From positions 1 through 25,257 of IMG/VR virus record IMGVR_UViG_3300026320_000025: DNA of 25,257 nucleotides; one strand, given 5' to 3'. Numbering within the stretch: the first letter of the stretch is position 1; each line of letters starts with the position of its first letter. The notes under the pieces are model-generated. The model was not told the origin of the DNA and ran no database searches. It saw nothing but the letters and a program-made list of their open reading frames with translations. Source of the stretch: a virus. This document shows, in pieces, positions 9,979-22,404 of this stretch. A program made the translations under genes and the position numbers.

Positions 9979-10740
9979 TTAGTTCACTATTCGCGGGGCA
10001 TTTCCTTGTTGCATGCCACGAGAAAACTTTGGCCGTATTCCTCGCTTCGTCATCCGGTCCCATACCTGTTGGATTTGAAACATTTTCCTATCCAAGAGGG
10101 ATGTACAGATACCTTGCGCACGATAACTGGTAGGTCCCCACCACCGCGGCAGGCTTTCAGCCATATACTCGGCGATGAATTCCGTTGTTTCTTTTTCTTC
10201 CGCTGCTTTGACGGCGCCCCTTGCGACCACCTGCTCTTCTTTCGAGAGACGCTGGAAAGCAAGCATCATAGGAATTACTTTGTCGATCAGAAAGTGCGAG
10301 AGCGGAAAGTGCGTGATCACCAATTTTCCGTCTACAATCTCTTTCGAGATCAGCGCTTGCAGAATCTCGTAGCGGCCGCGCCACGGATATTCTCCGGTGA
10401 CGTAGAATCCGTCAGGACTGTCGAACTTTCGCTCGCCGTCCTCGTGCGTTTTTGCCGCCATGTAACTATTCGCGTAATAAATGTTCGGAGAGCCGTACTT
10501 CGTCGGTGGTTGCCAGCGCATGATCACCCAGCAAGCCATTCCGTGAGCTTGGTAGCGGTCACGATAGCCGATTCTCTCGTTTCCGTTCTTGTCGCGCCAG
10601 AGATTACCCATGCGGATGAATTGCGATTGTCCCCAAACGATTTTAAAAAGCGGCGTACCGAATTCAGATTTCCCGAAAGTTCTGGTCAGGCGGTCTTGAA
10701 ACTCCGCAGGGCAGCGACGTCGCTCGCCGGTTATGGACAT
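9979..10740 (-). CDS. head-cluster phage protein, unknown function
   Basis: 253 residues from ATG 10740, overlapping the end of the GroES-like gene by ten bases, which implies coupled translation. No clear ribosome binding site is seen. The protein is rich in Trp, Tyr and Arg (IVWGQSQFIRMGNLWRD, ACWVIMRWQPPTKYGSPN). It has a helical middle with Glu/Lys/Ala (about 160-205) and a basic C-terminus (RMTKRGIRPKFSRGMQQG). There are no membrane segments and no catalytic motif I recognise. The position between co-chaperonin and neck genes suggests a head-completion or DNA-related role. An opposite-strand frame of 290 codons covers the same DNA but lacks gene-like context. Confidence 0.74.
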   Translation of the reverse strand: MSITGERRRCPAEFQDRLTRTFGKSEFGTPLFKIVWGQSQFIRMGNLWRDKNGNERIGYRDRYQAHGMACWVIMRWQPPTKYGSPNIYYANSYMAAKTHEDGERKFDSPDGFYVTGEYPWRGRYEILQALISKEIVDGKLVITHFPLSHFLIDKVIPMMLAFQRLSKEEQVVARGAVKAAEEKETTEFIAEYMAESLPRWWGPTSYRAQGICTSLLDRKMFQIQQVWDRMTKRGIRPKFSRGMQQGNAPRIVN

Positions 10741-11075
10741 GGCACGGCCCGTGCGTACACTTCCTCTTCGAGAACGAGATGAAGGTTCCTTTCGCCGGTG
10801 AGTTCCTCGATGTCTGGAATTTCGAGGGGAAAGTTCGTGTAAATCACGACATCGCCTTTAGATAGTCCAGTGCCATCGGGAGCCGCCACGACGATGCCGC
10901 GCTGCGACCTAGCATTGAAGAGCGGAGAACCTTCTCCAGGAACAACCACGCCATCCGCAGTCTTCATCTCTTCCTGAGTGATCTTGCGGATCAAAACCCA
11001 CTTGTTACGTGGCTCAATTTCCCACTGCGTAGTTTTGGCAAGCGCTACGGCGCTGCCGCCTTCTTTCGCTTTCAT
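10731..11075 (-). CDS. GroES-like co-chaperonin (Cpn10 fold)
   Basis: 114 residues from ATG 11075 with a G-rich site (GGGGGAAGCG) upstream. The sequence follows the Cpn10 plan. NKWVLIRKI (24-32) matches the first strand. EEMKTADGVVVPG (35-47) matches the GroES mobile loop, whose hydrophobic tripeptide (IVL in GroES) is VVV at 43-45. ARSQRGIVVAAPDG (55-68) matches the EK.QRG.VVAVG strand, and LSKGDVVIY (71-79) matches the VKVGD.V.F strand. The end, LVLEEEVYARAV, matches the ILREDDILAVI terminus. Known phage co-chaperonins (T4 gp31) partner host GroEL to fold the capsid protein. The gene sits next to the capsid gene, separated only by an HNH gene, which fits that role. Confidence 0.8.
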   Translation of the reverse strand: MKAKEGGSAVALAKTTQWEIEPRNKWVLIRKITQEEMKTADGVVVPGEGSPLFNARSQRGIVVAAPDGTGLSKGDVVIYTNFPLEIPDIEELTGERNLHLVLEEEVYARAVPCP

Positions 11076-11088
11076 CGCTTCCCCCGAT

Positions 11089-11610
11089 TCATGAATCCCA
11101 ATTCGCCACCATCAGTTTCATTTCGTCAAACGTCAAATTGTTTTTCGAGCGGTTCGCTTTGTAACTTATGACTCTGACGTTTTCTTTCACGTAGCCCCTG
11201 GACCCATCGCGCCTGTCAAGCGTCGGGCTGTTGTCCTGCAAAACTCTACCGCTTTGGAACAGAGGAATTCTCAACATCGGACAAAGCGTCGGGATTACGA
11301 CATCAGTTACATCAATATTGAACGGCAGCCCTTTCTCTCGCGCTCGATGCTTGGCCATTTGCCACATGATGTATTCTGGCGTCCTGGATTTTCCGTGCTT
11401 GAAATTGCATTTGCCGCGCACTTCCCTCGAATAGCAACCACAACTAGTACTTCCGCCAGAGGTTAAATTTGCGACCGATGTAGTCACAAGACCTCCGCAC
11501 TCACAAGAACAAAGCCAATGGTACATCCTGGCTTTGCCAACATATCCTACGAACCACCGTGCGGTTAGCCTTCCAAAAATGCGGCCAGTCAAATCTAAAA
11601 TCTTTGCCAT
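11089..11610 (-). CDS. free-standing HNH homing endonuclease
   Basis: 173 residues from ATG 11610 with AGGAG six bases upstream. Residues 5-62 carry the N-terminal module common in phage HNH proteins: DLTGRIFGRLTARW, then WLCSCECGG (Cys34, 36, 38) and SCGCYSREV (Cys57, 59), likely a zinc-bound DNA-reading domain. The nuclease part has CPMLRIPL at about 110-117 and SPTLDRRDGSRGYVKENVRV (128-147), the usual SLDRID...GYV.GNV.V motif, followed by SYKANRSKNNLT. It should nick or cut DNA at a specific site and spread by homing. It separates the capsid gene from the GroES-like gene and sits after two hairpins, so it looks like an insertion. Confidence 0.88.
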   Translation of the reverse strand: MAKILDLTGRIFGRLTARWFVGYVGKARMYHWLCSCECGGLVTTSVANLTSGGSTSCGCYSREVRGKCNFKHGKSRTPEYIMWQMAKHRAREKGLPFNIDVTDVVIPTLCPMLRIPLFQSGRVLQDNSPTLDRRDGSRGYVKENVRVISYKANRSKNNLTFDEMKLMVANWDS

Positions 11611-11702: not shown

Positions 11703-13040
11703 TTAACTCGTAACAGAAGGCACGGCAGCACCTGAAATATACAGACCTGCCTTCAGTGAGGAATTGTACAAATTTAAAAACGCGTTGTAAAAAAAGATCG
11801 AACTGGTCAGATAGCTTCCCTGACCAACGTAATCGGGAATCGGCATGGTGGTGACGCCGTCTCCGAAATCATAGAGCGATGGCTCGACGGTTTCGACGAT
11901 GCCCCAAGTCTCGGGACAAATCGCGTCGAGGCGCCCTTGTTTCGCGGTGTAGGCCACATTCAAATCACGCCCGCCAAACTGCGGCGACATGTGCTTCTTG
12001 ACCATGTCGAGTGCCTTGTCGCCTGGCGGGACGTAGTTCTGCTGCAGCACGTTCGTATAGAGTTGCGTGACGGCCAGCTCCTGATCCGGCCCGCAGACCC
12101 ATTCGAAGTCCGCTACCGCCTCGTTGTCGGCGCCGAGCCCGCGGCCAATCAGGATCTCAGCCTTGTACGGATCGGTGGTGTTGATGGGAGCATTTGCCTT
12201 AGCAATGTTTGGCGTCGAGAGCTGTCCAGGGTAAGTCGAGCGGGACAGATTCAGAATCGTGCCTGTATTCGACGCCACTTGGTAGGTGTACAGTCCCGCA
12301 AGCCCGCTGTTCAGCGCTCCTGAAGAGCCCTGAATCATCACGAAGTCTCCGGCAGCCGTGCTGGTTGGCAAAGCAGTCGAGAAAAACACCGTGTCTGCCG
12401 CACCGTCGACATAAGACACTGTCGCCGTCGCTGGCGTGATGCGAGCTGTTCCGCCTTCTGTCGGGAAGAACTGAACGACTTGCTGCTCTTGGAATTGGTT
12501 TGCCTGGCCACCGAGACCCACGATGCTCGATGGATTTGCGCCGCCCAGCGTGTTGTTGTTGACCGTGGCGGTGGTGGGAATCTGCAGGATAGCTCCTGAA
12601 CCGTCGCTCAAGAATTGCGCGTCGAGGCCTTGCATGAAGGAGTTGAAGGAGTTCTTCAGCTCTTCAGCGCGCAGGCTGATCAGACTGCGCTTCGGACCAC
12701 TCGTGGCGATCCTCGCGAGATAGGTAATCTCTGTCCCGGCAAAGAGTCCGATGGGAGAAATATCCCCGGCCACCCAGTTCGAGCCAGTCCCGCGGCCCAA
12801 AGCATCACCGTTTCCGGTAGCTTGGAAGATTGCCGCACCAGACTGAATGCGCACAGGAATGCGGAAAGACGGTCGCGAAGTGCCGCCAGCTTGCGTGGTG
12901 ACGGAAGTCGGGAAGGTTTTGCTCTTCTTTTTGATAAGGTTATAAAAAGTTCTGCCTTTGTACACCAAATCAGGAATGCCTTTTGCAAAATTTTCCAACT
13001 CGACGGCCTGGACGGCCGCCTCTTGTAGGGGCGATGCCAT
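11703..13040 (-). CDS. major capsid protein
   Basis: 445 residues from ATG 13040 with GAGGT about six bases upstream. The N-terminal arm is helical (LQEAAVQAVELENFAKGI, then LVYKGRTFYNLIKKK). It is followed by an Arg/Pro strand region (SFRIPVRIQSG) and a long helix around SLISLRAEELKNSFNSFMQG, consistent with the spine of an HK97-fold capsid protein. Residues about 180-275 are Thr/Ser/Ala-rich and may be an inserted beta domain. The C-terminus contains LYDFGDGVTTMPIPD (389-403) and GSYLTSSIFF. It follows portal, scaffold-like and a short capsid-adjacent gene in standard head-gene order. The LYDFGD segment recurs in two small proteins near 18.9 and 19.7 kb. No protease gene lies upstream, so the shell is probably assembled on the scaffold-like protein. 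Confidence 0.88.
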   Translation of the reverse strand: MASPLQEAAVQAVELENFAKGIPDLVYKGRTFYNLIKKKSKTFPTSVTTQAGGTSRPSFRIPVRIQSGAAIFQATGNGDALGRGTGSNWVAGDISPIGLFAGTEITYLARIATSGPKRSLISLRAEELKNSFNSFMQGLDAQFLSDGSGAILQIPTTATVNNNTLGGANPSSIVGLGGQANQFQEQQVVQFFPTEGGTARITPATATVSYVDGAADTVFFSTALPTSTAAGDFVMIQGSSGALNSGLAGLYTYQVASNTGTILNLSRSTYPGQLSTPNIAKANAPINTTDPYKAEILIGRGLGADNEAVADFEWVCGPDQELAVTQLYTNVLQQNYVPPGDKALDMVKKHMSPQFGGRDLNVAYTAKQGRLDAICPETWGIVETVEPSLYDFGDGVTTMPIPDYVGQGSYLTSSIFFYNAFLNLYNSSLKAGLYISGAAVPSVTS

Positions 13041-13583: not shown

Positions 13584-14987
13584 CTACTTTTCCTTAGCCC
13601 AGTCCCAGTTCACTTCTTTGCCGTTTTTCAACCAAGCTTTTCCAGCGATCCAATACGTGTCGTTGGTCTTGGCCCAATCGACATCGTCACGATTTGGCTT
13701 TCCGCCAGTGTAGTTCACTTTGGCTGCTCCAGTCCCACCACCACCTCCTGCTCCATTTGCCGCAGCTCCTTTACCGACTCCAGCGACCGCGGCTTTCACT
13801 TTGGTGCCGCCTTTCATGAAGTTCGGATACATCGCATCGCGAAGCTTCCTGAATTCTTCCGGCAAGAGTTCAGCAAACTTGGCGTGCGTGAAGCGCGCTG
13901 CGCGGAGCCGGTCGCCCTTACCAATGATCGCTTTTGCCGCCTTCTGGAAAGGCATGTCCTTCTTCATCAGACTCCAAACGCGATTGTTGAGCGCGTTGAT
14001 GAATTCGCGGCGGCCGTCCGTTTTTAGATTCAACTGCTTGAAGAACGGCTCGACGATTTTCGCGGTCACGATGTTGTTGGAGCGGTTCACATCGGTGGCA
14101 ACGCTGTCTTCGAAATCTTGGAATTTCTTGGTTTCGAAATCGGCTTTCTCGCGTTCGAACTTCTCGCGCTCCGGGTCTTTCTTGTTCTTCAGCTCGATTT
14201 GCTTCGAGGCCAATCCTTTGGCCTTGTCGAGCCATCCGGCTATTTTTGCGGTGAGATCGTAGGCTTCCTGGCCCTTGCCGTCTTTGATCAATGCGGCGAG
14301 TTCTTGAACGGAACTGTACATCTGGGCTTTCTCGAGACGCGCCACCATCGCCGGAAGAATGGCTTTGTCAAATAAGTCCGGAGATTTCTGCGCCAGCAAA
14401 TCGATGCCGTTGCTGATCGCCAGCACAAATGAATCCGGATTGGCTTCGTGGAGTTGCGTCAAGAGTGCAGGATCGCCTTCGGAGAACTGCTTGATCTCGT
14501 TGCGATAGTCATCTACTTCGCCTTGCAGGCCGTCGAGGCCTTCTTGACCGCCGAGAGCTTCGAAAGTGGCTTTGATCTGGCGCGCTTCATTGACGCCGCC
14601 GGGAAATTCTTCGTCGTAGGCTTTTCTGCGGAAATGATCGTTGCCCCATTTCTTGGCAAGTTCTGGATGGAGCTTCTTTAGCTCGGCGATGTCCTTGCGG
14701 GTCTGCTCGTCCATCTTGGGATCGAGCGGACCCAATCCTGGCTCTTCTTCTGCCGCTCCTTCCCCGCCTTCGCCAACTCCCTCGCCAGCCCCTTCCCCGC
14801 CTTCGCCTTCCCCTGCTCCGGTGCCTTCTCCTCCTTCATCGGTACCACCACCAGCCCCTGCGCCTTCGCCAGATCCGGCACCGTCACCAGATCCTGCCCC
14901 AGCGCCAGCGCCTTGATCACCAGCGGCACCCGCTCCTGCGTTTTGATCCGCAGCTACTTCAGTTCCAACGCCGCCTAGATTGTCCAT
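13584..14987 (-). CDS. putative scaffold-like protein
   Basis: 467 residues from ATG 14987 with GGAGG seven bases upstream. Residues 1-83 are almost entirely Gly, Ala, Glu, Ser and Asp, encoded by a simple GC-rich repetitive stretch. Residues about 93-390 are helical and charged, including an EREKFEREKADFETKKFQDF coiled-coil-like segment near 280. The tail has a Gly-rich linker and a Trp-rich C-terminus (DVDWAKTNDTYWIAG, then VNWDWAKEK). Acidic, helical, non-conserved proteins between portal and capsid are typically scaffolds, and the C-terminal basic/aromatic end could bind coat subunits. No Ser/His protease motif is visible. Alternative: an internal head protein. Confidence 0.72.
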   Translation of the reverse strand: MDNLGGVGTEVAADQNAGAGAAGDQGAGAGAGSGDGAGSGEGAGAGGGTDEGGEGTGAGEGEGGEGAGEGVGEGGEGAAEEEPGLGPLDPKMDEQTRKDIAELKKLHPELAKKWGNDHFRRKAYDEEFPGGVNEARQIKATFEALGGQEGLDGLQGEVDDYRNEIKQFSEGDPALLTQLHEANPDSFVLAISNGIDLLAQKSPDLFDKAILPAMVARLEKAQMYSSVQELAALIKDGKGQEAYDLTAKIAGWLDKAKGLASKQIELKNKKDPEREKFEREKADFETKKFQDFEDSVATDVNRSNNIVTAKIVEPFFKQLNLKTDGRREFINALNNRVWSLMKKDMPFQKAAKAIIGKGDRLRAARFTHAKFAELLPEEFRKLRDAMYPNFMKGGTKVKAAVAGVGKGAAANGAGGGGGTGAAKVNYTGGKPNRDDVDWAKTNDTYWIAGKAWLKNGKEVNWDWAKEK

Positions 14988-15005: not shown

Positions 15006-18000
15006 TTAAAGTTTGGGCCGACCGCCTGCGTTTTCAGGAGCACCTGTAGGAAGCGGTGCTGCTGGGGGTTTCGCCACTCCTTCCGCCGCTGCCGGGACCG
15101 GTGCAGGTGCACCAGCTCCAGGAGATGGCGTGAGTCCAGCCTTCTGCAGAATTTGATCCGATGCGCCTTTATCAACCATGGCAACATCTTTGTATCCGAC
15201 GCTGACACTTGGCGGTTTCCCGGCCGGTGCGGCTTGCGCAGCCTTGGCCTGCACGGCCTGGGCGTGCTCGTCATAGTGCAGGCACACGTTCTTGAAGCCG
15301 TCTGGATTGCTGCGTTTCGCGCGGCGCCCTTCCTGACCATTGATATATTGCCAGCAAGTAGCGGCTTCTGTGTCGTTATCGTCGGTCTTCTCGTCGATGG
15401 GCATCGAACAAACTTCCTGGGGCATGGCAGCAACTTGCTGCTCAGCGGCGGCCAACTCTTGCGGATCGACACCAGCCATCTTCATCTGCTCTATCTTTTG
15501 CGTGGCTTCTTCCACCTGCGGATTGGGAACCGGGATGCTCTTCAGTAATATTTCTATCTCGCCGAGTTGCTTGTTGCGCGAAGCCACCTGCGGAATGTAG
15601 AGATCGGAAAGGCCCATCATGTTCTGCAGGAATTCGAGATTCGCGGCATTGAAGAAAACTTCCTGCAGCATCGGATTCTTCCCGATGTCGTTGAAGATAT
15701 TCATGATCGCGTTCTTGCGCTGTGTGTAAGTTTCCGGGAAATTCTCGTCGCTCTCGGCAAACACCATGATGTTAGCTTTGAGATCGTTGATCTCGAGCGC
15801 GATGGTTTCCCCGCCAGGGATACGTTCGTTGATGGACTTGTCGCGGCACTTCGCGGCCCAGCGCACTAACTGCTTCATCGAAGTGGCTTCGGCATTCTTC
15901 ATGGAATGCCACGTCGGCGCTAGTCTGCCTAGAGCGGAATCACGTTGGGTGGCAATTGCAACTCCGCTATCGGCGGTTCCGACATCTCCCCCGGCAAGGG
16001 CCGGATACGCTCCCGACAGCAATTCGGCAAGTGGCCCGGAATATTCTTTGATGAAGTCCGCGAGATTGGCCGGCGGATTTACGGCCGGCTCAACGAAGAT
16101 CAGTTCATTTACCGCAATCCCGGGCTGGCGCCTGAACGATCCGATATCTCCGGGAACGTTGGTTTGCTGGCGGATGGCTTCGACGGCAAAGGCTTTCGAG
16201 TCCATCCATTTCTTCGGGATGGTGCGCACGAAAATGTCGTTCATCAAATCCAGCCAATTGTTAAGCCGCTTCTGCAAGGGCATCGTTGACGTGCCCATGG
16301 CATTGCGGTTCTGGCCGTCGCCAGAATAGGCTTGCGCGAGTGCCCAGGAATCGTCCATCGATTCGTTGCGCGCAAAACAGAAAGTGTCTCCGGCAAAAAC
16401 TACATAGCAGCCGTTAGGAAACATCTCGATCAATTCATCGCGCTTATTCTCATCCGTGATGCCCATCAGATATGAAGGGCGCATCCAAGTGCGTTGAATG
16501 GTGACATCGGCAGCGATGGAATCGCTCGTCACATAAGTGGACTGCATCCCCAACTTGACGTTCTGGCGCGCGAGACGGGCTATCTCACCCATGGCCGCTT
16601 GATTCGTGGCCGCCTTGATGTCATCGGCTACCCACGGGAACATGCCTTTGGCGCGTGTCTCGTCTACTTCGCACTCGTACTGCAGCACGTCCACTTCATC
16701 CAAACTATTCGCCATCATCGGCGTCAACTTGATTTCCAGTTTTCCGTGCGCGGTGCGGACCTCTTGCCCTCGTGGCGTGCGCTTGACCGGCTCCGATTCT
16801 TCTCCTTCTTCCGATTCTTTCTCTTCATCTGTGGCGGGAGGCGCGCCAGGACTTTCTTGGGCAGTCTCAGCCGATTCCGGAGTTGACGCAGCCGCTGCTC
16901 CTTCAACTGGCGTCCCTTCGTTTTCCGGAACCAGGTCGTCTGGCTCGTCATCCTCTTCCCATCCGAAGCGCTGGCCGTCCTTCACGAAACGCGACCAATA
17001 GAGATAGCGTCCGTCAGTCCAGAGCAAACGCGATCCGTCTGTTTGAATCTGGATCAAATCGTTGTTGCGCGAGATTACCTTGACAAATTTCTCAGCCGAT
17101 TCAGCGGACGTGATTTGCGCGTCGGAGTCGGCGCGTTGTGGGCCGAAGCGCACATTCGGCACTGTGCGCGTGAGCGCAGCGATAATCATCTGCGCGCGTG
17201 CGGAATAAACATTCGTCGGTAACAGAGCCAAGTCCATCTGCATCGACGGCCCGTAGCCAGTGCTCTCGCCAGGAATAATCCACCCGCCGCCGCGCTGCGG
17301 AATAAGGAATTGGAAGCCGCGATAGAAGAGCGCACAGTTGTGCGTCGGGATCATGGACTTACCAGCAAGATAGAGATGATCCGCAGCGTTTACTGAGATG
17401 CAGCGCACCATTCGTTCGCCTGCTGGTTTGATTTCCTGAATGTATACTTTGCGCGTGCGTCCGTTCTCTTTAGGAATCTGTTGCTTTGCCAACTTACGCT
17501 TCAGGCGAAATGCCGCAAACTGCGGACGAAAGGAAGTCTGCTGGAAATTGTAAGTCTTACCATCGCGCTCTCTGCTGTATGGATAGAACTGATGCTTCAC
17601 TCCTAGAGACGCTAGTAATTCAGAAACATCTTCGATGAGTCTAAGGTGTTTATCTGGCGACTGGCCCCATCCGCAACCGCCGCTACCATCGGCCCATCCA
17701 TCCGTATCCATCAACCCTTGAAGCAAAGCTATCCGTTGGGGGATAGAAGCGCGGAGATATACTTTAGGAATGCGCTTGTTTCCGAAAATGCCGAGTTGAT
17801 GGAGAGTCTTGGAAAGACCGTGAATACGCACTCTCCAAATGTTCTTAACTTCTGAATTTTTACCGCCGTCCTTTTCTGGCTTACTAGTTTCGTATCCAGC
17901 CTTTCTAAAGCTAGATACTGATTCACTTAAGTCTTGGATATTCCCACAAATACATCCACCCTTAGAATATCCATCGCCAAGCCAGCAACCGAGCAGGTAT

Positions 18001-18575
18001 GGATCAAGAGGCAATTCGGCGCACATCGTTTGCAGACCAGGAGATAGGTCAATGCTGTGACTTTGCTCTTGAGTCTCGAAAAGTTCTTTGGTTGAACGCT
18101 CCTTGGCAGATTTGCCAGCGTAGCGTTCTTTTACGGTTTGTGTGTTCCAAGTGTGGCCTTCTGAGGCGGTTATCGAAGAACCATCATCGAACTTTACATA
18201 AAAAGAAGACTCTTTGCTGATTGGCTGGACGGCGAGCACATCTACAATGCGGCCGTTAGAACCGAAAACATAATCGCCTGCTTGCAGGTCACCGATACGC
18301 ATCCAACCATTGGGCGTTGCGATTGGCGTTTCGACATCTAATTTTTCCCAGGCCTGAATCACTTCTATCAGTCTCGCGGGATAATCGCGCTTCGCCGCCA
18401 CCTTGCAGCGATCCTTCAGGAGATTTTCTTGTTCTTTGGTAAGTTCCGCGTTGGGTACGGTGGAGAATTCTAATCCTGCGAGGACACCGATTTTATATTT
18501 AGGCTCGTCGTGCTCTTGGGTGTCGCGACCTTCTTGCTCGTCGCTGCCCGTATAATTTTGGACCGCTGTCGCCAA
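15006..18575 (-). CDS. portal protein, interrupted by an intein
   Basis: 1189 residues from TTG 18575, with GAGAGG five bases upstream. The intein occupies residues 78-413, leaving an 853-residue portal after splicing. The joined junction would read EVIQAWE-CALFYRGFQ, inside the N-terminal region of podovirus-type portals (ARLIEV.QAW...FYRG.Q.L). Later landmarks are GGGWIIPGES, a long helical region with MPLQKRLNNWLDLMNDIF (stem or crown helices) and LLSGAYPALAGGDVGTADSG. Residues 540-597 are an acidic Glu/Pro/Ser insertion. The last 80 residues are Ala/Pro-rich. The portal forms the dodecameric DNA gate at the head vertex and docks TerL. It is followed by the scaffold-like gene and preceded by a small basic gene. 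Confidence 0.85.
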   Translation of the reverse strand: MATAVQNYTGSDEQEGRDTQEHDEPKYKIGVLAGLEFSTVPNAELTKEQENLLKDRCKVAAKRDYPARLIEVIQAWEKLDVETPIATPNGWMRIGDLQAGDYVFGSNGRIVDVLAVQPISKESSFYVKFDDGSSITASEGHTWNTQTVKERYAGKSAKERSTKELFETQEQSHSIDLSPGLQTMCAELPLDPYLLGCWLGDGYSKGGCICGNIQDLSESVSSFRKAGYETSKPEKDGGKNSEVKNIWRVRIHGLSKTLHQLGIFGNKRIPKVYLRASIPQRIALLQGLMDTDGWADGSGGCGWGQSPDKHLRLIEDVSELLASLGVKHQFYPYSRERDGKTYNFQQTSFRPQFAAFRLKRKLAKQQIPKENGRTRKVYIQEIKPAGERMVRCISVNAADHLYLAGKSMIPTHNCALFYRGFQFLIPQRGGGWIIPGESTGYGPSMQMDLALLPTNVYSARAQMIIAALTRTVPNVRFGPQRADSDAQITSAESAEKFVKVISRNNDLIQIQTDGSRLLWTDGRYLYWSRFVKDGQRFGWEEDDEPDDLVPENEGTPVEGAAAASTPESAETAQESPGAPPATDEEKESEEGEESEPVKRTPRGQEVRTAHGKLEIKLTPMMANSLDEVDVLQYECEVDETRAKGMFPWVADDIKAATNQAAMGEIARLARQNVKLGMQSTYVTSDSIAADVTIQRTWMRPSYLMGITDENKRDELIEMFPNGCYVVFAGDTFCFARNESMDDSWALAQAYSGDGQNRNAMGTSTMPLQKRLNNWLDLMNDIFVRTIPKKWMDSKAFAVEAIRQQTNVPGDIGSFRRQPGIAVNELIFVEPAVNPPANLADFIKEYSGPLAELLSGAYPALAGGDVGTADSGVAIATQRDSALGRLAPTWHSMKNAEATSMKQLVRWAAKCRDKSINERIPGGETIALEINDLKANIMVFAESDENFPETYTQRKNAIMNIFNDIGKNPMLQEVFFNAANLEFLQNMMGLSDLYIPQVASRNKQLGEIEILLKSIPVPNPQVEEATQKIEQMKMAGVDPQELAAAEQQVAAMPQEVCSMPIDEKTDDNDTEAATCWQYINGQEGRRAKRSNPDGFKNVCLHYDEHAQAVQAKAAQAAPAGKPPSVSVGYKDVAMVDKGASDQILQKAGLTPSPGAGAPAPVPAAAEGVAKPPAAPLPTGAPENAGGRPKL
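17337..18344 (-). mobile_element. class 3 intein with LAGLIDADG endonuclease domain
   Basis: This in-frame insertion encodes portal residues 78-413 (336 residues). Block A reads KLDVETPIATPNGW and begins with Lys instead of the usual Cys, Ser or Ala. Block B has GSSITASEGHTW with Trp143. Block F reads RCISVNAADHLYLAG with Cys392. Block G is IPTHN followed by Cys as the +1 residue, with Thr411. A missing N-terminal nucleophile together with Trp, Cys and Thr at these places is the class 3 signature (WCT), in which the block F Cys starts splicing. LLGCWLGDG (194-202) and LLQGLMDTDG (284-293) are the two LAGLIDADG motifs, so homing is likely intact. The portal gene stays in frame across it. Confidence 0.87.
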
Positions 18576-18588
18576 GAGAGCCTCTCAG

Positions 18589-18780
18589 TTATTTACGCGC
18601 ACTTGCAAAGGCTAAAGCTAGCCTGGCTTTCTTTCCGACTTTTCCTGGCTTGTGCTTGTCGTGCTGCGCTTCTTCCGGAACAGAACGACCGTGGGCGTGA
18701 GCGATCCGCGTAAAACTTCCCTCGGTTCCTTTGGACTTCATCTCTTTCTTGACGCCAGACATCCAGCGGTTAGAGGCCAT
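18589..18780 (-). CDS. small basic protein, unknown function
   Basis: 63 residues from ATG 18780 with AAAGGTG four bases upstream, overlapping the previous gene by 11 bases. It is strongly basic (MSGVKKEMKSKGTEGSFTRI; GKVGKKARLALAFASARK) with several His residues in the middle. Proteins of this size and composition are frequent just ahead of phage portal genes. It may bind DNA or RNA or be packaged, but nothing in the sequence proves this. It ends 13 bases before the portal start, so it is probably co-translated. Confidence 0.7.
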   Translation of the reverse strand: MASNRWMSGVKKEMKSKGTEGSFTRIAHAHGRSVPEEAQHDKHKPGKVGKKARLALAFASARK

Positions 18781-19225
18781 GGGTCACCTTTCTGCTGGCA
18801 TTCTCCAAACAGGTTGCTGCTTCAGCATCGAATCGCTTCACTGCTTCTACGAGTCTCTCAAGGATATCGGTGCTGTCGATGATGCTCTTCCTTGGTCCTC
18901 CAGGGCGATTTTTGCATTTAATCTCGAATCCCAAGAAGAGAGTTCCTTCAAGATTTTGGAGAAATGCAATCGAGGTAGACAGGTAGGTTCCCTGGTCTTT
19001 CATGTCAGGGATCGGCATGACTGTAACTGAATCTCCAAAATCGTAGAGTTTCAGATGGGGCGGGATCACTGCGGCAAAAGCACGCTCCTCGCGCTCCTCT
19101 TCGGCTACGATTGCCGCACATCTTTCGCAGAGAATATGGCCTGCTACATCAGAAGATAAATTCTGGCCCGGCATCATCGCCAACGGCGACATAGCTGCGG
19201 ATTTAATTAGGTTGCGTCTGTTCAT
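18770..19225 (-). CDS. capsid-motif protein A with twin-Arg-like N-terminus
   Basis: 151 residues from ATG 19225, with GAAGGA seven bases upstream (overlapping the previous stop), so this start is well supported. Residues 1-19 (MNRRNLIKSAAMSPLAMMP) look like a twin-arginine signal: paired Arg, hydrophobic middle, Pro/Gly end. Cys33 and Cys36 (ILCERCAAIV) could bind metal. Residues 60-88 (LYDFGDSVTVMPIPD, then GTYLSTSIAFL) closely match capsid residues 389-417. The C-terminal part (STDILERLVEAVKRFDAEAA) is helical. Its neighbour at 19446-19823 has the same motif-then-helix plan. Function unknown: it may copy a capsid surface to modulate assembly, or be a head component derived from the capsid protein. 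Confidence 0.72.
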   Translation of the reverse strand: MNRRNLIKSAAMSPLAMMPGQNLSSDVAGHILCERCAAIVAEEEREERAFAAVIPPHLKLYDFGDSVTVMPIPDMKDQGTYLSTSIAFLQNLEGTLFLGFEIKCKNRPGGPRKSIIDSTDILERLVEAVKRFDAEAATCLENASRKVTHGL

Positions 19226-19228
19226 AGC

Positions 19229-19453
19229 TCATTCCTTCACGAGATTCGCAAGAGAATTCTTAGGTTCCCACCAATCCGAGCAAAAACTGTCGGCAGGAGC
19301 TGGCAAGCGCGTCGAGCCGTTCCACTTGACGAAGTATTTGTTGATGCAGCTTTCTTCATCGCTCCCCAGGAATTTGCAGTTCTTGCACATCGATCCGCCT
19401 TTAGGCACGCGCATTCCAGCGCGATGCCCTGGTGGATACGTCGCCTCAGCCAT
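19229..19453 (-). CDS. small four-Cys protein, HiPIP-like cysteine pattern
   Basis: 74 residues from ATG 19453, overlapping the upstream stop by eight bases. After a Pro/Gly-rich start (YPPGHRAGMRVPKGG) come Cys23, Cys26 (MCKNCKFLG), Cys36 and Cys58, the last in FCSDWWEP. The arrangement C-x2-C-x9-C-x21-C, with Phe after the second Cys and Cys-Ser-x-Trp at the end, resembles the cluster-binding part of high-potential iron-sulfur proteins, although the spacings differ. A structural zinc site is the main alternative. It lies between the two capsid-motif proteins. I would not assign a redox function from sequence alone. Confidence 0.7.
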   Translation of the reverse strand: MAEATYPPGHRAGMRVPKGGSMCKNCKFLGSDEESCINKYFVKWNGSTRLPAPADSFCSDWWEPKNSLANLVKE

Positions 19454-19823
19454 TGGCGGATTTCGCGCTCTCGGGATAGTGCGCTGCGCGATAATTCAAG
19501 AGCCGCTCTTCGGCTCCACGGAGCTTCTCATTCAATTCCTCGAAAGTGGCGAAGTGATTGATCACTACCGTGGTCACGAACCATCCGTTGCCCATAGCGA
19601 TGACATCATTCTCTTTGCCAGGCAATGGCCCGTCGTATGTTGGTCTTTCTGTGCCACGAAGCACGGGGAAAACAGCAGTTTGCGTCAGGTATTCGCCTTT
19701 AGCGTTCATCATCGGAACTTCGTTTAGCCCGGTGCCGAAATCGAATAGCGTGAAGTCGTGGCGGTTTGAAGCGTAGTCGTAGAGCAACTGGCTTCTTCGT
19801 GCTTCTTCCATTGATTGCCTCAT
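19446..19823 (-). CDS. capsid-motif protein B
   Basis: 125 residues from ATG 19823 with AAAGG seven bases upstream, overlapping the previous gene by four bases (ATGA). Residues 26-52 (LFDFGTGLNEVPMMN, then GEYLTQTAVF) align with the capsid C-terminal segment LYDFGDGVTTMPIPD...GSYLTSSIFF. Similarity is lower than in protein A, but the Leu-aromatic-Asp-Phe-Gly start, the Pro and the Gly-x-Tyr-Leu-Thr sequence agree in order and spacing. A beta segment (GNGWFVTTVVINHF) and a C-terminal helix (TFEELNEKLRGAEERLL) follow. It may share a role with protein A in head assembly. No other family is recognised. Confidence 0.72.
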   Translation of the reverse strand: MRQSMEEARRSQLLYDYASNRHDFTLFDFGTGLNEVPMMNAKGEYLTQTAVFPVLRGTERPTYDGPLPGKENDVIAMGNGWFVTTVVINHFATFEELNEKLRGAEERLLNYRAAHYPESAKSANG

Positions 19824-20449: not shown

Positions 20450-20827
20450 CTAATTCGAGGCGTTGCTACTTTCAGCTTCTTTCTCGGCTGCGTCAACTGG
20501 CTGCGTATAGCGTTGAGCGACTTTCTCTTCCTGTTCTCGCAGCGCTTTTTGAAGTATCCGTTGCCAAGGGGTTCCAGTGTATGTCTCTTGGCTCGGCGCT
20601 GGCGGCGCTGATTTATCTGGCTCCAACTGCACGTTCTGCAATGCGGGCGTGAGATAAAGCCGTATTCTCTGCGCTTCCTCTCTTAGCCTAGCGCATTCTT
20701 CTATAGCACGGTTGAGTTCCACGACGTGAGCGTTTTTTAAATCTGTGATTTGTTGAGCATGGTCGGCCTTCAACTTCTCGAACTGCTCTTCCAGCCATTC
20801 TTCGTGGTGACTACGGAAGAATTTCAT
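20450..20827 (-). CDS. coiled-coil protein coupled to terminase
   Basis: 125 residues from ATG 20827, overlapping the TerL stop by four bases (ATGA), so translation is coupled. A longer frame upstream lies inside terL and is not needed. Residues about 5-70 form one long charged helix with heptad character (EEWLEEQFEKLKADHAQQIT, then VVELNRAIEECARLREEAQR). The C-terminal half is Pro/Glu/Ala-rich, with a second helix (PWQRILQKALREQEEKVAQR). It may be a terminase partner or a portal-docking accessory. It does not look like a small terminase, since no helix-turn-helix is visible. Confidence 0.72.
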   Translation of the reverse strand: MKFFRSHHEEWLEEQFEKLKADHAQQITDLKNAHVVELNRAIEECARLREEAQRIRLYLTPALQNVQLEPDKSAPPAPSQETYTGTPWQRILQKALREQEEKVAQRYTQPVDAAEKEAESSNASN

Positions 20828-22404
20828 TGTCCTAACCTTCGCTGCCAGCTCGGCACGATCTTTGATCCCCCAGGCCCTTTGCGCTCTGCGGCTTGCTGTT
20901 CGTTCCAATCACGGTACGCCACAATATGCCGAGTAAATGGATCAGCTATCCCCGCCAGCTTCTCGCGGAGCAATTGTTCCTTAGGTTTATCCGCTGCGTC
21001 AAGGAGAACGCCAGCTACCGCGTACCTCATCGAATCGCCGCAGTCATCAATGAGGCTTGCTCCTTTTGGCTTTATTACATCTTCCATGGAGCATTTGTTT
21101 CCATCTCCGCGCACCAGTAAGGGAATCGCTTCTGCGCAGTTTTGACATTTCCCTTGGAGCAAAAACCATTCATCCATTTCGAGCATCGAGTACATCTTGG
21201 TCCAGCCGGCGATGCGGTCGTTGTTGGAGCGTGTTGGCCGCGGCAGACCAGCGGCAGCCAAGATATCTCCCACTTCGTCGGCGACCGTGCGATTCGATGT
21301 TGTGCGATTGAAGCGCTCCCAAGAAAAATGGATTGAATCGATATCCCAGGCATAGCCTGTTTCGATTCCGTTTTCGTCGTGGTTGCGCGGAATAGCGGAT
21401 ATCAGTGCATGAGCTTGCTGCTCGGGGGTTTGTTCTTGAAGCACAAGTTCTTCGAGAGTGACATTCACTACGCGCGGCTTCTCGCCTTCGAATCGCGGCC
21501 TCAAGAGCGCTTTCGTCCAGAAAGTGATTACGGAAAAGTGACCAAACCCCCAGTCGTAACCTACCCACACGGGCTGCCAGGGCTCAAACATAAATGCTTC
21601 ACGCGGCAGAATGTGGCGATTAGGCTCGAAATTGGCGAAGTATTGCCCGCTGACCGTCTCAATGTTTCCCCATCTAATCTTGTCGCGCAAGGGAGATTTC
21701 TCAAGCGAGGCGATATACGCTTTGTCCTGGCTGAGGATAGGATTGTCTTCGACTGTCGAGTGAATAAACTGGTAGTCTGCGGGATCGTATTTCTCTGGGT
21801 CCATGCCATGCGCCGGCAAATGATCCACCCACAAGCGCTTGATCCAGCCCCAGCCGATGCCCATCGGATTTGTGGCACTGGCCATGCACGGTCGTGAGCC
21901 AGGAATTGTGCAGCGGTTGCGCCCTTCCATCGCGTCATAGATCAAGTAGGGAAATTCGCCAAGCTCCTCGAAGCCGATGAAGACAAACTCAGTCGAAAGA
22001 TATTTGCCGACGTCCTCGACGCGCTCGCAAGCGGCAAAATATAACTTGCTTTGCTTTCCGTTCACTGGAGGGAAGTAAACGATGTGATCGGATTTGTTGA
22101 AAGTGCCGCGCTCTTGCGATCCGCGCTCGTAGAGAGATTTCGGGACATCCGCCAAAAATTTATCGATGACGGTGCGTTTTAGGTCCGGAATAGTTTTCCG
22201 CAAAATTATGGAGTTCGAGCCGGGATATTCAAGGCAATGAAAAACTGCTTCCATCAAAAGCGCCCTGGACTTGGCCGACCCAAATCCGCCAATTTGTATG
22301 CGGTGCTTTGCCGTCATGCAATGAAAAATTTGTTGTTTGGGCCACGGAATGTAAAAGTCGGTGATCTTGAGGACTTGATCTGGACGGTGCTGCTTGAGAT
22401 TCAC
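20824..22404 (-). CDS. terL: terminase large subunit (DNA-packaging ATPase/nuclease)
   Basis: 526 residues from GTG 22404. No good ribosome binding site is seen and an in-frame stop lies just upstream, so the start is the least certain part. The ATPase domain has a Walker A-like GGFGSAKS (39-46), a Walker B EFVFIGFEE with acidic pair 146-147, and the coupling motif SATNP (176-180). The nuclease domain (RNase H fold) has GYDWGFGH with Asp284, then WDID (Asp354, Asp356) and DDCGDSMRYAV (Asp453, Asp454, Asp457), which supply the metal ligands. The length is normal for the family. TerL docks on the portal, translocates DNA into the head and cuts the concatemer. A terminator-like hairpin precedes the gene. 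No convincing small terminase is visible in the window. Confidence 0.93.
   Translation of the reverse strand: MNLKQHRPDQVLKITDFYIPWPKQQIFHCMTAKHRIQIGGFGSAKSRALLMEAVFHCLEYPGSNSIILRKTIPDLKRTVIDKFLADVPKSLYERGSQERGTFNKSDHIVYFPPVNGKQSKLYFAACERVEDVGKYLSTEFVFIGFEELGEFPYLIYDAMEGRNRCTIPGSRPCMASATNPMGIGWGWIKRLWVDHLPAHGMDPEKYDPADYQFIHSTVEDNPILSQDKAYIASLEKSPLRDKIRWGNIETVSGQYFANFEPNRHILPREAFMFEPWQPVWVGYDWGFGHFSVITFWTKALLRPRFEGEKPRVVNVTLEELVLQEQTPEQQAHALISAIPRNHDENGIETGYAWDIDSIHFSWERFNRTTSNRTVADEVGDILAAAGLPRPTRSNNDRIAGWTKMYSMLEMDEWFLLQGKCQNCAEAIPLLVRGDGNKCSMEDVIKPKGASLIDDCGDSMRYAVAGVLLDAADKPKEQLLREKLAGIADPFTRHIVAYRDWNEQQAAERKGPGGSKIVPSWQRRLGQ

Follow-up and report, generated by a model that had tools for sequence, protein, structure and literature searches.

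Why does a virus carry a short stretch of its major capsid protein (MCP) again in two small, otherwise different proteins, and what might such copies do? The window, meaning the whole stretch of DNA analysed here, is a 25,257-base IMG/VR virus record, and all of its genes relevant to this question are on the minus strand. The MCP (445 aa, 11703..13040), the source of the recurring segments, has weak library matches (NCBIfam podovirus capsid, 31.7 bits against a cut-off of 80; PHROG major head, two matches with E 0.005 and 0.013), and its identity is also backed by gene order in relatives. Solved structures compared with the MCP profile gave nothing convincing (best E 0.4, unrelated enzymes), and an AlphaFold2 model made from 17 sequences is unreliable (pLDDT 37).

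The genes for the two small proteins, P0002 (151 aa, 18770..19225) and P0003 (125 aa, 19446..19823), had been placed between terL and portal, and gene order confirms this. One border of the interval is the terminase large subunit gene terL (20824..22404; PHROG E 1.4e-34; Pfam Terminase_3, 47.1 bits), and the other is a portal-like gene (P0005, 15006..18575), which no library named and which is identified by gene order. The gene at 13584-14987 is called scaffold-like because of its position. A GroES-like gene (10731-11075) is directly downstream of the MCP gene, and is found beside it in most of the relatives listed, which suggests help for capsid folding. Between these two genes is an HNH-like gene (11089-11610, labelled by eye); its protein is 100% identical in locus L004, the gene was not found there in the further relatives compared, and it looks mobile. 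Searches of cultured phages with the MCP, P0002 and one of the leader proteins described below gave no match, and neither did a pattern search of a bacterial genome collection for the MCP or the leader.

The capsid segment in P0002 and P0003

The sequence-only reading had reported that MCP residues 389-417 (11790..11876), near the C-terminus, recur as residues 60-88 of P0002 (18962..19048) and, in a weaker form, as residues 26-52 of P0003 (19668..19748); these residues and coordinates are exact. The MCP and P0002 segments are identical at 20/29 residues (BLASTP E 8e-12; Gumbel p ~2e-10 from 5000 shuffles), and the profile search and the profile-profile comparison that the reading had proposed agree, the latter matching the P0002 family to the MCP at 97.9% (E 4e-13). 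For P0003, the pairwise likeness would be marginal if taken alone (BLASTP E 3e-4, shuffle p 9e-4). In an MCP profile search of 28 proteins, P0003 itself scored E 0.063 and its ortholog in L011 E 0.0094 (a further ortholog is present in L004), while the P0003 family matched the same MCP columns by profile-profile comparison (54%, E 1.3e-4). The weaker form is credible because of the L011 ortholog, the profile-profile match and a bridging protein, L115 2679-3089 (LYDFGGGTAVMPMVDKDGGSYLTSTVCYP).

It had also been argued that codons differ too widely between the MCP and P0002 segments for a recent duplication. This was borne out: 56/87 bases are identical, 10 of the 20 identical residues share a codon, and synonymous sites are saturated, which rules out recent duplication as the origin of the segments.

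The likeness to the MCP covers ~33 of the 151 residues of P0002 and ~27 of the 125 of P0003, or about a fifth of each chain. P0002 has relatives in L003/L004, L019, L115 and L010, and together with L019 4665-5093, L115 2679-3089 and the motif-poor L010 1052-1384 (which aligns with the L115 protein over 107 residues) it looks like a member of one small-protein family. The fold of this family may possibly be a helix, three strands and a helix, going by an AlphaFold2 model of P0002 from 5 sequences that is not reliable (mean pLDDT 42; helix 34-53, strands 67-73, 81-92 and 95-104, helix 118-149). A helix had been expected after the motif; the model does have a later one at 118-149, a weak point in favour, but the third strand (95-104) intervenes.

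The 29 N-terminal residues of P0002 (19139..19225, MNRRNLIKSAAMSPLAMMPG) weakly resemble a twin-arginine signal. This stretch is missing from the 96% identical allele in L004 through an in-frame indel, and no second copy of it was found among the collected loci. Neither P0002 nor P0003 matched a PHROG or NCBIfam family, and the only Pfam match was a sub-cut-off TAT_signal for P0002. Judged by sequence, the two proteins are outside known library families and are not conventional capsid paralogs.

Capsid pieces, leaders and an A-domain-like family in related viruses

Relatives of the MCP were gathered in three rounds (27, 38 and 55 loci, many of them the same contigs). The MCP profile was then compared with 18,980 unique stop-to-stop ORFs of >=30 residues from 114 partly overlapping IMG/VR loci, and matched, besides MCPs, 16 small ORFs at E<=0.01. 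These represent ~14 lineages when two near-identical allele pairs are each counted once; MCP exons at contig edges or with interruptions, five in all, had been dropped. The mirroring of the MCP by small proteins is thus real, and wider than the sequence-only reading had seen. The C-terminal segment is carried in the window, L003, L019 and L115; the N-arm in L036/L037, L029, L015, L107, L109, L105 and L010 (the last with a spine-helix piece as well); the spine helix in L034; and the E-loop in L003 12874-13425 and L029 1435-1644. Labels such as N-arm, E-loop, spine and A-domain are presumptive: they follow sequence position and analogy with the HK97 fold rather than a structure. The copied pieces are short, about 17 to 62 residues, and are set within otherwise different proteins. 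The E-loop-like piece of L029 1435-1644 is embedded in a small protein that has paired cysteines and resembles a zinc-binding domain. Variants of an MCP loop, LxRxxYPGxL (residues ~267-277), recur in L036, L107, L114 (E 0.011), L089 and L105.

Many carriers begin with a leader of the form M-RR-F...LGVAAATALPSEVWPFRKIFLP, present in 21 loci, and a second form ends in PFRVFSFP (L055, L089, L094 and L105). The region behind the leader is highly variable, and the pieces in it are sometimes scrambled. In L113 they depart from the order in the MCP: between two collinear pieces is a stretch that by itself matches the N-arm (model positions 17-33, E 1e-4), a score reached by 0/500 shuffles. Scrambled order is also seen in L107. 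The piece in L055 has a tryptophan, as does its own MCP, where most others have phenylalanine.

Twenty-four leader proteins were scored against ten profiles, a near-identical allele (L037) being dropped and a segment counted at E<0.01 for one comparison. The main MCP profile gave a segment in 13/24, against a shuffled mean of 0.13, and none in the remaining 11/24; the distant MCP profile gave six, portal three, terL two, and groES and g96 one each. Scaffold, p152, p139 and g63 segments were found in 0/24, and shuffled means across the ten profiles were 0.01 to 0.32. The portal segments (L049 9e-4, L111 2e-4, L114 3e-3) and terL segments (L115 E 8e-3, L105 3e-4) are weak, each E value being for one comparison. 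The terL profile alone found none at E<0.1 among 28 proteins, a set that did not include the protein of L105 2953-3264. By profile-profile comparison, the N-arm leader proteins matched the MCP at 97.8% and three leader proteins matched portal at 32%. At L111 9806-10628 there are two tandem leader proteins, the second of which has one stretch in common with portal and also with the g96 family, so that its origin appears ambiguous. The variable parts of the L044 5049-5330 and L048 2618-2935 leader proteins match 0/10 profiles at E<0.05.

The leader resembles that of twin-arginine signal proteins in having M-RR-F and a hydrophobic stretch; it differs in that what follows is a constant stretch, WPFRKIFLP or PFRVFSFP, and then mosaics of phage proteins. 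Scores against Pfam TAT_signal (cut-off 22.7) were 12.2 bits for P0002 and 10.5, 14.0, 15.5, 21.7 and 21.9 for five leader proteins. Among those five, only L113 passes NCBIfam TIGR01409 (17.1, cut-off 16.7), which P0002 does not match, and no known exported domain was found in the leader proteins scanned. They and P0002 can only doubtfully be called twin-arginine proteins.

A further family of 17 small proteins resembles the MCP A-domain, and many of its members have an HPxQ-like motif; eight seeds were picked by eye and nine members were added by profile search. The family is collinear with a distant MCP clade over 84 columns (profile-profile 88%, E 3e-6; 40% with a second MCP clade), and its profile finds the MCPs of L086 (E 2e-4) and L091 (1e-3). 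Leaving out its most MCP-like member, from L088, lowers the profile-profile match to 80% (E 1e-5) and weakens the MCP matches to 0.025 and 0.07. Members are alike over most of their own length, yet cover only one region of the MCP. The window has no member of this family.

In the 39 genome clusters that include terL as well as portal, the interval between these genes holds an MCP-piece ORF in 13, a first-form leader protein in 14 and an A-domain-like protein in 12. At least one such gene is present there in 20/39 clusters, and none was detected in 19/39, although four of the latter carry one elsewhere (L055, L088, L089 and L094): in L055 just upstream of or overlapping terL, and in L089 and L094 on the other strand, beyond the MCP. 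The E-loop gene of L003/L004 sits between portal and scaffold. The P0002/P0003 pair is, on this comparative evidence, one case of lineage-wide accessory proteins that bear pieces of the MCP and, in a few, of portal or terminase.

Specificity, age and selection

The same whole-ORF search with portal, terL and scaffold profiles returned only members of those genes themselves, edge fragments or split copies, and 12 column-shuffled MCP profiles gave 0 matches at E<=0.01 (best 0.7). As controls, seven further conserved small families were compared with five structural profiles (35 comparisons), and all scored <=1.5%. The mimic families used for profile-profile comparison had been assembled after the likeness was noticed. 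Fragments of scaffold may simply be harder to recognise than those of the MCP. The copied MCP columns are barely more conserved than others (0.824 versus 0.782, circular-shift fraction 0.05); the idea that they are the most conserved MCP columns was rejected, as the effect is slight and detection bias may explain it.

Reading frames are intact in P0003 and the leader proteins, which do not look like decayed gene duplicates. Five ortholog pairs of these proteins gave dN/dS values of 0.11-0.22 by a simple counting method, values that are rough since four of the five pairs have dS >1.6; the leader alone gave 0.04 and 0.12. P0002 and its L004 allele gave 0.62, a value based on one close allele and on too few changes to show selection on P0002 itself. 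Compared with their own MCP genes, five pieces are at or near synonymous saturation and are therefore old. In two ortholog pairs, the pieces show no higher conservation than the remainder of the proteins that carry them (P0003/L011, 16/26 versus 56/92 identical; L029/L107, 14/31 versus 25/46). The likeness is beyond chance, old and, in the whole-ORF search, specific to the MCP, and several of the carriers are under purifying selection.

Proposed mimicry and its alternatives

The explanation tentatively preferred, although it could well be wrong, is mimicry of the MCP in competition for a partner, perhaps a variable host factor for which the small protein would be a decoy. The small protein would present a surface or peptide of the MCP and so compete with it for whatever binds the MCP. 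The partner probably varies, and might be a host factor that detects the MCP or acts against it; a partner within the phage, such as scaffold, the shell edge or the portal rim, would be about as open a choice. A host partner is slightly favoured because carriers come and go, differ in their pieces and can scramble them, and because bacterial immunity senses the MCP, portal and terminase: MCPs are established activators of immune systems, and STAND systems respond to terminase or portal proteins (PMC9712102). A precedent for a competing phage protein is DSAD1 (phages phi3T and SPbeta), which vies with the tail-tube trigger for binding to DSR2 (PMC11087589) and is alike in being a phage protein in a sensor site meant for a structural trigger. 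It differs in that copying of the trigger sequence is unstated for DSAD1 in the available text of that paper, whereas here the likeness is plain and a sensor is proposed. In the Gol peptide/Lit and CapRel systems, a short MCP stretch or the MCP itself activates host defence (PMC9712102, PMC12926258); those triggers are inside the MCP, whereas here separate phage genes carry the pieces. Against a decoy, a leader that targets the membrane or periplasm would remove the protein from cytosolic sensors. The 11/24 leader proteins lacking a segment of the main MCP profile, and the conservation of the pieces, no better than elsewhere in their proteins, also weigh against mimicry. No description of such capsid-piece proteins was found in the open-access literature searched.

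A role in assembly or in the virion is possible though doubtful, and is judged nearly as likely as a host decoy. The small proteins would bind the MCP, scaffold or portal where the copied element usually binds, and would cap the shell, nucleate it or fill it, perhaps around the portal vertex. The sequence-only reading had proposed such a role, with the small proteins copying an inter-subunit contact as vertex, portal-ring or assembly-control parts; in a variant, the twin-arginine-like signal could be an anchor holding assembly at the membrane. Where both borders are present, most carrier genes are in the same-strand terL-portal block, and the pieces come from presumptive N-arm, E-loop, spine and A-domain elements, all of which make contacts in HK97-type shells. 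The A-domain-like family, with its 84 collinear columns, is also domain-like. A fixed vertex part fits poorly, however, because the pieces differ between genomes, their order is scrambled in some, and 19/39 clusters have no such gene detected in the interval; the AlphaFold2 models of the MCP and P0002 are both unreliable. The vertex protein of T4 is a paralog of the MCP of the same phage, MCP-like over its full length and of HK97 fold. The proteins described here are likewise second MCP-related proteins of their phages, but the T4 likeness is whole-chain and theirs is confined to short pieces.

Mimicry might also take a modular form, in which a twin-arginine-like membrane leader or a small carrier fold presents interchangeable and sometimes scrambled peptides of the MCP, portal or terminase, all known targets of bacterial sensing, as 'poly-epitope' decoys that would occupy host sensors and blunt protein-sensing immunity. 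This is unlikely.

The portal-like gene of the window contains an intein with a LAGLIDADG domain (library matches; ~residues 78-413 of P0005, window ~17337-18344). Its relatives match residues 1-77 and 408 onward, and the 94% identical portal of L004 is without the intein. MCP genes are interrupted near residue 103 in L025 (9947-11994) and L026 (9998-11973) and near residue 32 in L033 (2902-4981), and by eye there is an intein-like insert in terL at L109 1-1755; these interruptions are likely inteins. Because the two MCP interruption sites (near residues 32 and 103) fall in copied segments, the pieces were considered as DNA targets of homing endonucleases, but this is unlikely given that DNA likeness is low (56/87 bases for P0002) and that the other copied segments are without a known insert.

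Homing endonucleases and inteins could nevertheless have spread bits of the MCP into a permissive interval, where the pieces would be inert debris of recombination. The portal intein, the interrupted MCP and terL genes, HNH-like genes (by eye) beside the MCP and terL, the mosaic and scrambled pieces and their conservation no better than that of their flanks are all consistent with this. It is made improbable by the open frames and low dN/dS of the five ortholog pairs, by the recurrence of the same segment across diverged families, and by the small ORFs, among which the whole-ORF search found no portal, terL or scaffold fragments; it would hold most for single pieces.

That P0002, P0003 and the MCP C-terminus are instead the same old small beta fold, alike by descent and fold constraint with no mimicry, is very unlikely: a motif-poor relative (L010 1052-1384) exists and the poor P0002 model has a beta hairpin at the motif, but fold constraint seldom keeps identity as high as 20/29, the likeness ends at ~33 residues, and the N-arm, spine and E-loop carriers, which are different proteins, are left unexplained.

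If the pieces act by mimicry of the MCP, they would reveal which parts of the shell something in the cell grips, and would be a sign of this visible in sequence for which further genomes could be mined. The choice between a host sensor and the assembly machine as partner is directly testable, as the proteins are small and expressible.
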